Shown here: one piece after another, positions 2,061 to 58,302 of the stretch
How positions within the stretch are numbered: position 1 is the stretch's first letter
Layout of the letters: the number at the start of each line of letters is the position of its first letter
Assembly (NCBI RefSeq): GCF_017352215.1
Contig: NZ_CP071444.1
Coordinates: 186,001 to 250,000 of the forward strand
DNA: 64,000 bases
Direction of reading: 5' to 3'
DNA from: Alkalibacter rhizosphaerae
GTDB taxonomy: Bacteria > Bacillota > Clostridia > Eubacteriales > Alkalibacteraceae
Position numbers and translations under genes: made by a program
Notes under the pieces: model-generated
The model's input: only the letters and a program-made list of their open reading frames with translations
Told to the model about the DNA's origin: nothing
Databases searched by the model: none

Positions 2061-3395
2061 TTACTCCTCGTCCTTGTATTTTGTTTCATGGAGATAATCG
2101 TATAGTTTCTTTTCATAGCCCAACTGGGTGGGATGGTAATATCGAACGTGCTCCATGCCTTCCGGCAGGTACTGTTGCTTGACGTAATGATTGTCGTAGT
2201 CATGGGGATACAGATAGCCTTTCCCATGGCCCATGGACTTTGCTCCTTTGTAGCTGGCATCCCGCAATGGCGGGGGAACGTCTCCCGAACGTTTGTTCTG
2301 TATGTCCGACAAAGCCCGGTTGATCCCCATATAAGATGCATTGCTCTTGGGTGCGCTGGCCAGGTAGGTCACCGCCTGTGCCAGATGGATCCTTGCTTCT
2401 GGCATGCCGATGATCTCCACGGCCCGAAAGACGTTGACGGCCACGTCCAAAGCCTGTGGATCCGCATTCCCCACATCTTCGGAGGCGGAGATGACGATGC
2501 GCCTGGCGATAAACTTGGGGTCTTCCCCTGCCCAAAGCATCTTCGCCATCCAATACAATGCTGCATCCGGATCGGAACCTCGAATGCTTTTGATAAAGGC
2601 GGAGGCATGATCGTAGTGGTTGTCTCCCTCCTTGTCGTACTGGACGACCCGCTTTTGTATGCATTCCACGGCAGTATCCACATCGATGAAAATGATCCCC
2701 TCGTCATTGGGTTGGGTCGTCAATACTGCAAGCTCCAATGCATTCAGGGCGTTTCTGGCATCTCCATCCGCCACTTTTGCCAAGTGGTCCAGCGCTTTCG
2801 GATCCGCCTGGACCTCCAATGATCCAAATCCCTTTTCTTCGTCTTTGATGGCCCTTTCCAACAAGGTCAAAATAGCGCTTTCGTCCAGTCGATGGAGGCG
2901 AAAGATCCGGGAACGGGAAACCAGGGGTCCGTTGACTTCAAAATAGGGGTTTTCCGTGGTGGCGCCTATGAGAATGACCAGACCTTCCTCGACGGAAGGC
3001 AAGAGAGCATCCTGCTGGCTTTTATTGAATCGATGGATCTCGTCGATGAACAGGATGGTGCGTTTTCCATAGAGCCCCAGATCTTCCCTGGCTTGTTCCA
3101 GGACTTGCCGAATATCCTTGACCCCGGATACTACTGCATTGAGTTGGACAAAGTTGGATTTGGTGGTGTTGGCAATGATCCTGGCCAAGGTGGTTTTCCC
3201 TGTGCCAGGCGGTCCATAAAGCAGGATGGAAGTGATCCGGTCGGCCTGAATCATTCGATACAATAGCTTGTCCTTGCCCAGGATGTGTTCCTGTCCCACG
3301 AAAGCTTCCAGGGTGTCCGGACGCATCCGGCTGGCCAGGGGACCCGTCGTTTTCAAATTTTCGTCCGCGTTTTGTCGAAAAAAGTTCTGCTGCAT
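2061..3395 (-). CDS. rarA: Replication-associated recombination protein RarA (MgsA), AAA+ ATPase
   Basis: Clamp-loader-like AAA+ ATPase that acts at stalled replication forks and single-strand DNA ends. The 444 residues show Walker [12 protein letters not shown] at about 61-71, Walker [11 protein letters not shown] at 114-123, sensor 1 (IGATTENP) and the C-terminal RarA tetramerisation region with the ASAPKSNA and GYLYPHDY blocks. Length is normal. The ATG has an AGGAGGG-type site upstream. It lies 23 bases after ltaE and 4 bases before the M16C peptidase, so the three are probably co-transcribed. Function in DNA repair comes from the family. Confidence 0.96.
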
Positions 3396-3418: not shown

Positions 3419-4456
3419 CTAAGATTTCTTCATGATCTTAGCAAATACTTCCAACGTTTTATGGATGTCTTCTTCCGTTATGTAGTAATGAGTGACAAAG
3501 CGCAACCGTCTGGCGCCCATGGCATTGACCAAAACGCCTTCTTCCCGGGCCTGCTTCATCAAGTCTTCCAGATCCACCTCTTCATCGGTCACATCGCACA
3601 TGAGGATGTTTGTCTGGACAAAATCCACGTCGACGGACAAACCGTCCATGGCGTTGAGACCTTGTGCAAGAACCTTGGCATGGCGATGATCCTCTTCCAA
3701 TCTCCCCGTCATCTCCTGTAAGGCGATGATGCCGGCAGCTGCCAGGATCCCTCCCTGTCGTATGCCGCCGCCCAGCATTTTTCGTACTTTTCGGGCCCGG
3801 TCAATAAAATCTTCCGTTCCCGCCAACATGGACCCCACAGGAGCGCACAGCCCCTTGGACAAACAAAACATGACAGAGTCGGTATACTGGGTCAATTCTG
3901 ATACAGGAACTCCCAGGGCGGTGGCCGCATTGAAGATTCGGGCGCCGTCCAAATGGACCGGAATGTTTTTATGTTGGGCGAATTCATAAATGGCTTTCAT
4001 GGTGGGAACATCGGTGACGGTCCCACCCGCCTTGTTATGGGTGTTCTCCAGACAGATGAGGGCCGTTTCGGGGTAGTGGATGTCAACTCCCCGTACTGCT
4101 TTTTCAATGGTTTCTACAGATAGAACTCCCTTATTTGATGGGATCAAACGACTTTGCACGCCGCTGATGGCACCGATCCCTCCTGCCTCGTAGGTAAAAA
4201 TATGGCAATTTTCTTCCAGTATCACTTCGTTTCCATGATCGGTAAAGACATTGACGGCGATTTGATTGCCCATGGTCCCGCTTGGGACAAACAATGCTTT
4301 TTCTTTCCCCGTCATCTCCGCTGCCAGATCTTCCAGTGCGGTCAGTGTAGGATCTTCCATATATACGTCATCCCCTACCTGGGCATGGGCCATGGCCTCT
4401 CGCATGACCGGTGTGGGCTGGGTGATGGTATCGCTTCTAAAATCGATTGGTTTCAT
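3419..4456 (-). CDS. ltaE: Low-specificity L-threonine aldolase
   Basis: PLP-dependent fold-type I enzyme that splits L-threonine or allo-threonine into glycine and acetaldehyde. The 345 residues begin with the hallmark FRSDTITQPTPVM and GDDVYMEDPT. The PLP-contacting HLDGARI is at about 168-174, and the Schiff-base lysine is K201 in CLSKGLCAPVGS. The start ATG overlaps the methyltransferase stop by four bases (ATGA) and has an AGGAG site 8 bases upstream, so translation is likely coupled. Its closeness to glyA (two genes upstream) fits glycine metabolism, but a terminator and a promoter separate them. Confidence 0.95.
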   Translation of the reverse strand: MKPIDFRSDTITQPTPVMREAMAHAQVGDDVYMEDPTLTALEDLAAEMTGKEKALFVPSGTMGNQIAVNVFTDHGNEVILEENCHIFTYEAGGIGAISGVQSRLIPSNKGVLSVETIEKAVRGVDIHYPETALICLENTHNKAGGTVTDVPTMKAIYEFAQHKNIPVHLDGARIFNAATALGVPVSELTQYTDSVMFCLSKGLCAPVGSMLAGTEDFIDRARKVRKMLGGGIRQGGILAAAGIIALQEMTGRLEEDHRHAKVLAQGLNAMDGLSVDVDFVQTNILMCDVTDEEVDLEDLMKQAREEGVLVNAMGARRLRFVTHYYITEEDIHKTLEVFAKIMKKS

Positions 4457-6396
4457 ATTTTGATCTCCTTTCGCCGTTCAAGATGTGTTTTTTCTTCTTT
4501 CGTAATGGAAAAGTAATCATAGACCCATTGATTCAATTCCTTCCAACCTTCCTCACGACGGGAAGGATCTAAGGACGCGATCTGGTCGTGACAGCATTCC
4601 AATGCTTTGACTTCCTGCTGTCCCATAACGGGTATGATCAGCCGGCCCACCGTGTTTGGATAGTATTCGTAGAGATCTCCACCCAATTTTTTACCGAAGG
4701 TTTTAAAATAAAAATCATATAGTTGAGAATTGAGAAGGGCTATGACACTTTTGTTGGTGTGATGGTGGATCCCTCCGGCAGGTATGGTAAACCCATAGAT
4801 ATCGGCACTGTAAAAAGATCCGTTTTGGTCCAGTGCAAACCGGCTGGAGGAGGCTTTGTAGGGGTAAACCACCTTTTCCCCTTCAAAAAACAACCGATCC
4901 CTACCCCATTGCAGATGATGCCAGGCTCGCAAGCCCTTTTGGCATTCCCGGCGGTTTGCCAGACGATCCCGATAGGGTTCCAAGCGGTCCCTAACAGATG
5001 GAGTTTCCTCCAGATTGTCGATCCCATCCGTATGGAGAAGTCTTTTTTCAGACGTTACGATCTTAAAAGGTCGAACCTGACTGTTTTTGATCCACATCTT
5101 AATGAATTCTTGGGGAAAGAATGTTGCTTCCTCCTGATCCAGAATGAATGCTTTGTCCAAACCCGTGATGATCCCCTGGCGGGAACGCCAGATCTCCTTC
5201 AACATCAGAGATCTTTTGCTTTTTATTTTATCCACGATGGCTCGTTCCAAAGGTTCCAGCAACGTCCATCCTTCCAGCTGCAGATTAGCGTCATTGACCA
5301 TAAAGGGTTTGCTGAAGGATTCATTCTCTTCCTGGAATCGCCGGACTTCCACCCGTTGGGACACCGGTGTTTCCAGTGTTTTTTCCACTACTGTTATGGC
5401 CGGATCCACTTTCACTTCCGGTATGGGTCGCTGTCCGTAGTAGTCCAGGATCTTGCGGATCCGTCCATGTTCCAAAAGATATCGTCGCAAACCTGCAGCA
5501 TTTTGCGCTTCGAAATAATATCGAGATGTGATGAAAGCCAGCTTGCCGCCTTCCTTCAAGGTTGAAAGACCCTGCTGAAAAAAGCAATAGGCAAGATCCC
5601 CCTTGTCGTAGTAAACGACAGGATACCTTTCCTTCAGTTTCTGAAAATATCCTCGATCCAGCTGCTTGTGTCCTACATATGGAGGATTGCCAACTACCAG
5701 GTCCATTGCCGGCATATCTTCACCATCCAGAAGAAAGTCACCGCTGCGGATACCGGGAACCGGAATGTGGACAGGGTGATGGAGTTGGATCATGGTTGCT
5801 GTGACCCAGGCCGCCATTGGGTCCAGGTCCATGCCGTACAACTGATGCTCCAAGATTTCCCGATGGGCCAACAGATCGCTCCAACCCTTATTTCGATATT
5901 CATCACGCAACCGCTCATACCAAAAGCATAGTATGAAACCTGCCCCGCAAGCAGGGTCCAGGACCCTTCTTCCTTCCAGGACGGGTTCCTCCACCATGTC
6001 CCAAAGGATTTGGATCAGTTCCAATGGTGTATAAAAAACGCCGTGCTGCCTGTTTTTTTCCTTGTCCATTTCCATTTGAAAGGTTTCCCCCAGCAAAATC
6101 GGATCTGCATCCTGGAAACTGGGTGCCTGTTTGAAAAAATCAAGCAATAGGATCTTCTCGTTTTCATCGGGCAATATATCCTCCCATGGCGGTTCAGGGA
6201 TCGGTTTGCCCGTCCAACCTTCCATAATGTGATGGAGTCGGAAATCAAATACCAGAACTTCCGGCAGGATGGGATCCACATAGCCTTTGTCCATCAGCAT
6301 TTTGGACAAGACCGCCTTGACCATGGTCAGGGATCCTTTTTCGCTATTTAGCTTGTTCAAATATCCTTCGATGCACCTCTTGTGATCCTTCAACAA
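4453..6396 (-). CDS. CamA-like solitary N6-adenine DNA methyltransferase
   Basis: SAM-dependent DNA adenine methyltransferase of the Eco57I/TaqI-like class. Numbering from the TTG start, it has motif X GVFYTP (about 119-124), the SAM-binding DPACGAG (147-153) and catalytic NPPY (237-240), followed by a target-recognition region. Blocks QGIITGLDKAFIL (about 407-419), LANRREC and QWGRDRLFFE closely match, as I recall it, C. difficile CamA, an orphan enzyme methylating CAAAAA. Compared with CamA it carries roughly 90 extra N-terminal residues. No restriction endonuclease is nearby, so it appears solitary. Start choice: the ATG at 6415-6417 has no ribosome site and lies about 5 bases after the predicted transcription start. 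The TTG at 6394-6396 has GGAGG 7 bases upstream (647 aa). It heads an operon with ltaE. Confidence 0.85.
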   Translation of the reverse strand: MLKDHKRCIEGYLNKLNSEKGSLTMVKAVLSKMLMDKGYVDPILPEVLVFDFRLHHIMEGWTGKPIPEPPWEDILPDENEKILLLDFFKQAPSFQDADPILLGETFQMEMDKEKNRQHGVFYTPLELIQILWDMVEEPVLEGRRVLDPACGAGFILCFWYERLRDEYRNKGWSDLLAHREILEHQLYGMDLDPMAAWVTATMIQLHHPVHIPVPGIRSGDFLLDGEDMPAMDLVVGNPPYVGHKQLDRGYFQKLKERYPVVYYDKGDLAYCFFQQGLSTLKEGGKLAFITSRYYFEAQNAAGLRRYLLEHGRIRKILDYYGQRPIPEVKVDPAITVVEKTLETPVSQRVEVRRFQEENESFSKPFMVNDANLQLEGWTLLEPLERAIVDKIKSKRSLMLKEIWRSRQGIITGLDKAFILDQEEATFFPQEFIKMWIKNSQVRPFKIVTSEKRLLHTDGIDNLEETPSVRDRLEPYRDRLANRRECQKGLRAWHHLQWGRDRLFFEGEKVVYPYKASSSRFALDQNGSFYSADIYGFTIPAGGIHHHTNKSVIALLNSQLYDFYFKTFGKKLGGDLYEYYPNTVGRLIIPVMGQQEVKALECCHDQIASLDPSRREEGWKELNQWVYDYFSITKEEKTHLERRKEIKI

Positions 6397-6428
6397 ACCA
6401 ACGCCTCCAATGAACATTCTGACATTTA

Positions 6429-6457
6429 ATTATATCACTATTGTTGTTGCTTTAAAA
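6429..6457 (-). promoter_or_regulatory. Probable promoter of the methyltransferase-ltaE-rarA-M16 unit
   Basis: Reading the minus strand, TGATATAAT is an extended -10 (TATAAT at 6429-6434). A weak -35 (TTTTAA) lies 17 bases upstream. The -35 side touches the glyA terminator. Predicted transcription would begin near 6422, which favours the downstream TTG start of the methyltransferase. Confidence 0.5.
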
Positions 6458-6461
6458 GGTG

Positions 6462-6497
6462 AAAGCCCCATTCCTCGTGATGAGAAACAGGGCTTTT
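6462..6497 (-). terminator. Rho-independent terminator after glyA
   Basis: Inverted repeat AAAGCCC (6462-6468) and GGGCTTT (6490-6496) with a 21-base loop, 13 bases after the glyA stop. The minus-strand tail is T-rich but interrupted. The plus-strand side has five Ts, so it could also work in the other direction. Confidence 0.6.
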
Positions 6498-6508
6498 TCA
6501 TTATCGTT

Positions 6509-7741
6509 TCATTTGGCGTAGGCCGGGAACTCCTTGACCAGGTTTTCCACCTTTTTCATAGCTGCCTCATTGTCTTTTTTTACCAGGCAATCGTGGATGG
6601 CTTCTCCTACGAGGACCATCTGGGCTTCCTTCATGCCCCGTGCCGTAATGGCCGGTGTCCCCAATCGGATTCCGCTGGTGATGAATGGACTTTCCGGGTC
6701 AAATGGGATGGCATTCTTGTTTGCTGTTATGTGGACCTGATCCAACGCTTTTTCCGCAAATTTACCCGTCAGACCTACATTCCGAAGATCCAGCAGCATC
6801 AGATGATTGTCCGTTCCATTGGACAAGAGTTTGAACCCAAGATCCATCAATGTGTTGGCCAGCACGTTTGCATTGGCCGCCACTTGTTTTTGATATTGGG
6901 AAAACTCCGGCGTCAAGGCCTCTTTCAAGGCTACAGCTTTTGCAGCGATGATGTGCATCAACGGTCCACCCTGGCTTCCCGGGAAGATGGCTTTGTCAAT
7001 GGCCTTTCCCAGTTCCTTTCGGCAGAGGATGGCTCCTCCCCTGGGTCCTTTGAGGGTCTTGTGGGTGGTGGTGGTGACGATGTCCGCATGAGGGATCGGC
7101 GATGGATGGGCTCCACCGGCGATCAAACCGGCGATATGGGCCATGTCTACCATGAAAAGTGCGCCCACTTCTTTTGCCACTTTTGCGATCCGCTCGAAGT
7201 CGATGAATCGTGGATAGGCGCTTGCGCCGGCAACGATCATTTTCGGGTGGTGTTTTCGCGCCAGCATTTCCAGCTGCTCGTAATCCAAAATCTCCGTGTC
7301 TTTATTGATGCCATAGGAAATAAAATTATAATAGCTTCCCGACATGCTGACAGGACTGCCGTGGCTCAAATGACCGCCATGGGCCAGATCCATCCCCAGC
7401 ACCGTATCTCCGGGCTTTAAAAAGGCAAAGTAGACGGCCATGTTGGCCTGCACGCCGGAATGAGGCTGTACATTGGAGTATTCCGCTCCAAAAAGTTTTT
7501 CGATCCGCTCTTTGGCAATGGTTTCTACAACATCTACATATTCACAACCGCCATAGTAGCGTTTCCCGGGATACCCTTCTGCATATTTGTTGGTCAAATG
7601 GCTACCCATAACTTCAATGACTTCCTTGCTGACCAGGTTCTCGGAAGCGATCAGTTCCAGGTTGTTTTCCTGCCGGTACAACTCTTTTGCCATGGCATCG
7701 TAAATTTCGGGATCATAATCCTTGATAATAGAAAAACCCAA
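6509..7741 (-). CDS. glyA: Serine hydroxymethyltransferase GlyA
   Basis: PLP enzyme that converts serine and tetrahydrofolate into glycine and 5,10-methylene-THF, the main source of one-carbon units. The 410 residues contain NLELIASEN, the substrate loop [20 protein letters not shown] and the lysine motif [14 protein letters not shown]. Length is normal. The start codon is TTG at 7739-7741, with GGAGG 8 bases upstream. An ATG overlapping this ribosome site is out of frame. It follows the stop of the 67-aa membrane protein by 4 bases, so both are probably on one transcript. Confidence 0.97.
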
Positions 7742-56915: not shown

Positions 56916-58135
56916 CTAAACGAGCGCTTTGTCAAGTGCCAACCCCTGTACGATTTTTCGAGTATCTCTGGCAATGGCAAGCTCTTCATCCGTAGGAATG
57001 ACCAGGACCTTCACCTTGGATCCAGGAGTGGAAATCATATTCTCCTGACCGCGGATCTTGTTTTTTTCATCGTCGATCTCGATCCCCAGGTAACTCAAGC
57101 CCTCGCATATGGCTTTTCGATTGCTGCCGGAGTTTTCTCCCAATCCTGCAGTAAAGACGATGGCATCCACTCCGTTCATGGCCGCCACATAACTTCCTAT
57201 GGACGTTTTCACCTTGTAATTGAAAACGTCAATTGCTAGCAGGGCTCTTTCATTGCCATTTTCTGCTGCACTTTCGATGTCCCGAAAATCGGAGCTGACA
57301 CCGGATATTCCCAAAACACCGGATTCTTTATTCAGCACTTCGTACACTGCGTCGGTGCTCATGTTTTCCTTTTCCATTAAAAAAGTGACGATGGATGGGT
57401 CAATGCTTCCACAACGGGTCCCCATTGCCAACCCTCCAACGGAGTGAAACCCATGGTGGTATCGATGGATCTTCCGTGTTCCACTGCAGAAATGCTGGCG
57501 CCGTTTCCCAAGTGGCAGGTGATGATCTTCATGTCGTCGATGTTTTTTCCCAAAAACATGGCCGCCCGCTCGGAGACAAACTTGTGGGACGTGCCGTGGA
57601 AACCGTACTTCCGGACTTTGTATTTCTCATAATATTCATAAGGCAAGGGATACATGTAGGCTTCCTTTGGCATGGTTTGATGAAAAGCGGTATCAAAAAC
57701 CGCAATTTGAGGAACGCCCGGCAACAATGCGGAACATGCATTGATTCCCGTAATATTGGCGGGATTGTGCAAAGGCGCCAATTCGATGCACTTTTCCAAA
57801 GCCGTCATTACCTGTTCGTCGATCAGAACTGATTCCGAATAGTACTCTCCGCCGTGAACGATCCGGTGCCCTACCGCATTTATTTCATCCAGGGATTCGA
57901 TGACACCATATTTTGCTTCCGTCAATGCGGTCATGACCAGATTCAACGCCGCTTTATGATCCGGAATGTTTTCCTTTTGAACGATCTTATGTTTTCCAGC
58001 AGGACTATGTGTAAAAATGCCTGCCTCCAGACCGATTTTTTCCACTAGTCCTTTTGCCAAAACAGTCTCGGTATCAGCCTCGATCAGTTGGTATTTAAGG
58101 GAAGAACTTCCGCAATTGATCACCAGTAAGTTCAT
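56916..58135 (-). pseudogene. ackA: Acetate kinase AckA, interrupted by a one-base deletion
   Basis: Makes ATP and acetate from acetyl phosphate. The N-terminal ORF (57377-58135) starts [20 protein letters not shown], has [11 protein letters not shown] and [10 protein letters not shown], and runs correctly to GFTPLEG, then reads into WQWGP and stops. The C-terminal ORF (56916 to about 57431) continues the family sequence from [15 protein letters not shown] to the end. Homologues read TPLEGLAMGTRSG, so one T is missing in GGTTTGG (plus-strand A near 57430-57431). Together the two parts give about 400 residues, the normal length. It could be a sequencing error; otherwise the gene is broken. pta is not next to it. 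Confidence 0.92.
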
Positions 58136-58195: not shown

Positions 58196-58302
58196 CAATC
58201 AAAAAAACACATTTATTTTCCTTGTATTTTTTGATTATGCAAACGATTTCGTTAAAAAAATACGCTTTTTTGCAATATTCAATTTGATTTTTTAAAATTG
58301 TA

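Follow-up and report, generated by a model that had tools for sequence, protein, structure and literature searches.

The closest well-described system is CamA of C. difficile (CD2758, PDB 7LNI/7LT5), a DNA adenine methyltransferase with a proven role in sporulation and colonisation. Its motif is CAAAAA, the residues that read this sequence have been listed by Zhou et al. 2021 (PMC8187626), and its effect on infection fitness is largely independent of sporulation (PMC13395437). CamA has been called “rare among other bacteria” (PMC8187626), and a paper of July 2026 calls it specific to C. difficile (PMC13395437). A motif that differs from that of CamA by an additional R has been reported for A. 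woodii, in which Awo_c14460 produces CAAAA(m6A)R at 98.9% of 5576 sites; the cloned gene confers this mark on E. coli as well (Jensen et al. 2019, PMC6700114). CAAAAAR methylation has also been described in E. limosum B2 (methyltransferase M5595_07210, PMC9503626), and a lone methyltransferase with the same motif in C. pasteurianum (PMC5027557). Earlier authors, drawing a comparison with C. difficile, noted that CAAAAAR recurs in A. woodii, E. limosum and several species of Clostridium (PMC10745947). M.BseCI, M.TaqI, MmeI and PglX/BrxX are gamma-class enzymes with TaqI-like recognition domains that share the general fold of the protein described here, but they have other recognition sequences, belong to restriction or BREX systems and score far lower.

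The camA-family gene analysed here lies in a stretch of 64,000 nucleotides of Alkalibacter rhizosphaerae DNA, referred to below as the window. Its product is 33% identical to C. difficile CamA and resembles it in fold, in catalytic motif, in most base contacts and in being solitary. CamA differs in lacking an N-terminal helical domain and in having other neighbours, and its sporulation role has no obvious counterpart in A. rhizosphaerae, which is without spoIVA and spo0A. Awo_c14460 is 35% identical and comes from the same order; it shares the length class with the N-terminal extension, the residues at all 15 contact positions and the rarA neighbour. The E. limosum enzyme, also of the same order, is about 36% identical, and the same contacts occur in its close relative G027/L171. 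For these comparisons we used homologues that we take to be Awo_c14460, whose gene is located some 41% of the way along the chromosome, and, by a similar assumption, the E. limosum enzyme; the two are 49.5% identical, which agrees with their published “similarity” of 48.9%. We consider it likely that the Alkalibacter protein is an orthologue of CamA, an ancient clostridial CAAAAAR methylase that provides an epigenetic signal in vegetative cells rather than serving sporulation or restriction.

The reading frame is intact on the minus strand and comprises 654 codons from the ATG at 6417 or 647 from the TTG at 6396, the latter being the better predicted start (Table 1); residue numbers below follow the ATG version. 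The distance from glyA to the camA start is approximately 90–110 bp. The camA stop and the ltaE start overlap in an ATGA at 4453–4456 and a gap of 23 bp separates ltaE from rarA, an arrangement in which a shared camA-ltaE-rarA transcript is plausible. Promoter-like sites found by consensus matching in the camA region were no more numerous than in shuffled sequences, and no Rfam family matched the window at the gathering cut-off.

Table 1. Features of the camA locus, in window coordinates; residue equivalences refer to C. difficile CamA
Feature	Coordinates	Strand	Remarks
camA-family solitary N6-adenine DNA methyltransferase	4453..6396	-	TTG start 6396, 647 aa; alternative ATG 6417, 654 aa
GGAGG ribosome-binding site for TTG 6396	6404..6408	-	7 nt before TTG; read from sequence
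Promoter-like TTTAAA-16-TATAAT	6429..6456	-	TG before second hexamer; directly upstream of camA; consensus match only
Terminator-like inverted repeat AAAGCCC...GGGCTTT, imperfect	6462..6496	-	Between glyA and camA; long loop; not called by scanner; read from sequence
glyA, serine hydroxymethyltransferase	6509..7741	-	Upstream neighbour
ltaE-like threonine aldolase (Beta_elim_lyase)	3419..4456	-	Start overlaps camA stop
rarA (MgsA), AAA+ ATPase	2061..3395	-	Conserved camA neighbour across most of host order
N-terminal all-helical extension	6106..6396	-	Residues 8-104 of ATG version; absent from C. difficile CamA
Catalytic NPPYVGHK	5665..5688	-	Residues 244-251; motif IV NPPY (244-247) and H250/K251
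QGII (414-417)	5167..5178	-	Q414 = CamA Q346, I417 = I349; contacts to A3:T3
NRREC (488-492)	4942..4956	-	R490 = CamA R425; reads G of C1:G1
QWGR (503-506)	4900..4911	-	Q503/W504/R506 = CamA Q438/W439/R441
YPYK (518-521)	4855..4866	-	Y520/K521 = CamA Y455/K456; T5 contact and wedge
SAD (537-539)	4801..4809	-	S537/A538 = CamA S472/A473
GGDLYEYYPN region (579-588)	4654..4683	-	G579, L582 in place of CamA S514, I517; Y586 = Y521

Sequence and fold both place the protein next to CamA. Pfam recognised Eco57I, N6_Mtase and TaqI_C in the product, and a phmmer search of all PDB chains returned C. difficile CamA (7lni/8cxz) as the best relative, with 290 bits and an E value of 3.6e-85 over residues 105–609, ahead of M.BseCI at 66 bits. 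An AlphaFold2 model, built on an alignment of 52 sequences drawn exclusively from family loci gathered in this analysis, had a mean pLDDT of 91.5 and a pTM of 0.89. When this model was compared with the PDB by Foldseek, CamA again came first (E 2.5e-47, TM up to 0.85 by target length), with BseCI behind it (E 6.3e-30, TM up to 0.79). By its motif IV and its TaqI-like C-terminal recognition domain, the protein has the predicted make-up of a gamma-class N6-adenine methylase. The initial annotation had drawn attention to three CamA-like target-recognition blocks and to some 90 extra N-terminal residues, and it was right on both counts: the blocks are present at residues 414–427, 486–492 and 503–512, and residue 105 of the Alkalibacter protein is paired with CamA residue 7 in the alignment. 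The first 104 residues form a helical domain in the model, and this extension is common to nearly all members in the host order (Eubacteriales).

CamA-like enzymes proved to be widespread. At a limit of E <= 1e-40, camA was present in 46 of the 61 genomes sampled from the host order and in 38 of the 48 good ones, a tally that at 43/48 would include weak matches to other methylases. Among genomes assigned to families from their CamA-like scores together with named loci in the same clades, the gene occurred in 51/60 good genomes of Peptostreptococcaceae (19/22 genera) and in 85/135 sampled genomes of Clostridiaceae (30/42 genera). A class-wide sample of Clostridia contained it in 45 of 382 genomes, and the family is therefore not universal in the class. 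An alignment-based pattern scan with one genome per species yielded 234 loci, 80 of which were kept, from Eubacteriaceae, Clostridiaceae, Thermohalobacteraceae and Halanaerobiales. Nearly all genomes have a single copy. This distribution contradicts the descriptions of CamA as rare among other bacteria and as specific to C. difficile, and with them the initial annotation, which had regarded it as nearly restricted to that species. Our literature search, which could not reach most subscription papers, found none that unites these enzymes as one CamA family. The gene is absent from particular lineages, namely G458-G461, G416, G462, G292 and G184 in Peptostreptococcaceae and groups g10, g13 and most of g20 in the host order, and such lineages offer natural knock-outs for the comparison of CAAAAAR sites.

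The relationships within the family follow those of the hosts. In a 43-row IQ-TREE phylogeny with bootstraps, which is unrooted as it has no outgroup, the host order formed one clade (100/99), as did the Peptostreptococcaceae including CamA (100/99), and eight labels required seven changes, which is the minimum. A 72-row tree agreed, with a value of 99 for the host order. The tree follows taxonomy and shows vertical inheritance with losses; C. difficile CamA and the Alkalibacter protein are both members of a single family that has been passed down vertically within the class Clostridia. The suggestion of a second, chromosomally fixed lineage thus stands as regards chromosomal fixation and falls as regards a separate lineage.

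The surroundings of camA differ between families. In Clostridiaceae, 34 of the 43 loci that extend far enough have spoIIAA-spoIIAB-sigF downstream of camA in the same orientation; the operon is the immediate neighbour in 16 (89–437 bp), and a divergent pdaA flanks the opposite side in 21. Representative SpoIIAA, SpoIIAB, SigF and PdaA proteins score above the NCBIfam cut-offs. The neighbours in Peptostreptococcaceae are ptsH-ptsI, and one family of the host order has unrelated neighbours. Within the host family, the spore former Alkalibaculum sporogenes, which has spoIVA, carries the string camA-rarA-M16C-dacF-U32-mutS2-dcd-x-iscS-thiI, at the far end of which, some 15 kb away from camA, lies spoIIAA-spoIIAB-sigF-spoVA (dacF, U32, mutS2, dcd, iscS and thiI were named from sequence by eye). 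A. rhizosphaerae and two congeners keep most of this string, and the spoIIA operon is missing from its place.

In the complete A. rhizosphaerae genome spoIVA was absent and no spo0A was found over the cut-off, the matches being to the receiver domain and far below it. The organism appears unable to make spores, and the part that CamA plays in C. difficile sporulation is consequently inapplicable here. Co-occurrence of camA with sporulation within the host order was considered and rejected: the gene is kept in 35 of 43 relatives without spoIVA, against 11 of 18 with it (Fisher p 0.11). The conserved use of the enzyme in this order is accordingly not sporulation. Control of spoIIE by CAAAAA was likewise rejected as an ancestral feature, as the motif exceeds its control upstream of spoIIE in Peptostreptococcaceae (2.6 vs 1.7 per 300 bp, mostly in close relatives) and does not in Clostridiaceae (0.68 vs 1.2 per 300 bp). 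No excess of CAAAAA was seen near spoIIAA in Clostridiaceae (22 vs 18) or near camA itself across all loci (84 vs 90).

Related copies across much of Clostridia, together with a host that seemingly does not sporulate, point to an old and widespread enzyme with a job besides sporulation. In the mechanism we propose, the TaqI-like target-recognition domain would read the asymmetric sequence CAAAAA(R), the last A of CAAAAA would be flipped into the NPPY pocket and methylated there, in a SAM-dependent manner and on one strand, and the mark would alter how proteins bind to promoters or to sites elsewhere. The sporulation role in C. difficile would then be one lineage’s use of an older enzyme. By analogy with C. 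difficile and with what is generally known of orphan methylases, the probable task of the Alkalibacter enzyme is, on balance, epigenetic regulation in vegetative cells. With a little less assurance, we also favour a wider history in which CamA-type CAAAAAR methylation was an ancestral mark of much of Clostridia, was linked to the sigma-F operon in Clostridiaceae, was kept with changed targets after the loss of sporulation, and became tied to spoIIE secondarily in the C. difficile family. The linkage to the sigma-F operon in Clostridiaceae independently hints at the reason for which the enzyme acquired its influence on sporulation. If this reading is true, the original function could be tested in organisms that are safe and tractable, for example A. 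woodii or E. limosum, which are without spoIVA and in which the motif has already been measured, and inhibitors of CamA, which has been proposed as a C. difficile-specific drug target, may also affect many gut and environmental Clostridia.

An enzyme with the same motif might instead have a conserved job in replication or DNA repair together with RarA, a replication-fork AAA+ ATPase, and not in gene regulation. The attraction of this idea is that rarA follows camA, directly or past ltaE, in 36 of 50 loci of the host order and that camA and ltaE overlap in A. rhizosphaerae. Linkage to rarA is, however, no evidence of shared function, and in other families the gene has different company (the spoIIA operon, ptsH-ptsI or unrelated genes), so that we regard a replication or repair role as unlikely.

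The product of camA is very probably solitary and not part of restriction. As the initial annotation had stated, the region is a housekeeping one and no restriction partner accompanies the gene: the flanking genes are housekeeping on both sides, and no nuclease gene was recognised in approximately 8 kb upstream, within the window, or in approximately 20 kb downstream, reaching past it. No fused nuclease or extra domain was found in the product by Pfam, and no BREX cluster among the neighbours. The other adenine-methylase-like genes of the genome, named by eye, are a type I HsdM-HsdS pair, PrmC and a TrmN6-like gene. CAAAAAR is neither enriched nor avoided to any notable degree genome-wide, with 2577 sites against 2850 for the reversed control.

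It nevertheless bears on a possible defence role, with the nuclease distant or unrecognised, that camA diverges fast relative to its neighbours: identity within the genus is only 39–40%, against 55–85% for neighbouring genes (60–85% for glyA, rarA, M16C and ltaE), which is unusual for a fixed housekeeping regulator. Within the genus the target-recognition domain is the best conserved part (48–52%, against 38% for the catalytic domain), and a slowly changing recognition domain fits a fixed sequence specificity. In restriction systems the pattern is usually the reverse, the recognition domain not being the slowest-evolving part. Its profile similarity to methylases of type II/IIG and BREX systems could also be taken to favour defence, yet the NCBIfam PglX profiles gave 22–78 bits on the product against cut-offs of 400–900. 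A type I system does exist elsewhere in the genome, but it has its own HsdM/HsdS. Some distant members are longer, at about 950 aa in Orenia (L074) and Halonatronum (L125), with a C-terminal extension of some 290 residues that has no Pfam match; a fused nuclease in the long members was considered and rejected, their extra parts having no Pfam nuclease match. Long open frames of 773–968 aa also occur in Peptostreptococcaceae G475-G480. Vertical inheritance and order-wide fixation are untypical of restriction, as is the incomplete methylation in E. limosum, at 37% of sites (PMC9503626), and a defence role is accordingly very unlikely.

The residues that would read the DNA are strongly conserved. 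An alignment with CamA showed 13 of its 15 base-contact residues to be identical in the Alkalibacter protein, and the homology includes the target-recognition region; the equivalent positions are given in Table 1, to which H250/K251 are to be added as the counterparts of the CamA minor-groove contacts H171/K172. All residues reading C1 to A4 are identical, and the two differences, S514G and I517L, are located at the A5:T6 contact. Across 114 members the CamA residue is kept in 85% of cases in contact columns, compared with 37% for the average CamA column, and none of 20,000 random column sets was as conserved. Three further substitutions relative to CamA, Y30F, F253I and S62A, line the SAM/adenine pocket and are all shared with the A. 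woodii and E. limosum homologues. Because these orthologues, for which CAAAAAR has been published, carry the same residues at all 15 contact positions, we predict with high confidence that the Alkalibacter enzyme methylates A6 of CAAAAAR. That the enzyme has the CamA fold but reads some other sequence, as the two differing contacts and the 61% of aligned target-recognition residues that differ from CamA might suggest, is highly improbable, since the contact differences are all common to orthologues reported as CAAAAAR, the C1-to-A4 readers are identical and no region is better conserved than the recognition domain.

The pair G/L at 579/582, in place of CamA S514 and I517, accompanies CAAAAAR in A. 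woodii, in E. limosum and, as judged from C. ragsdalei, in the C. ljungdahlii group, and the S514/I517 pair accompanies CAAAAA in C. difficile. This is a hint that positions 579 and 582 are candidate determinants of the extra R.

Three CAAAAAR sites are found at 58200–58272, in the intergenic sequence upstream of the acetate kinase gene ackA, and one of them, inside a GTTTTTTTG tract, has the same spacing to the start in the three relatives G001, G002 and G003. The cluster is a possible regulatory lead; since the GTTTTTTTG tract also satisfies the reversed control, the conserved site is perhaps a promoter element only. The ackA gene itself (56916–58135, minus strand) is split by a frameshift after about residue 240 into two overlapping frames, which reflects either a genuine disruption or an indel introduced in assembly, and the open frame of this region is longer in the 14 relatives searched.
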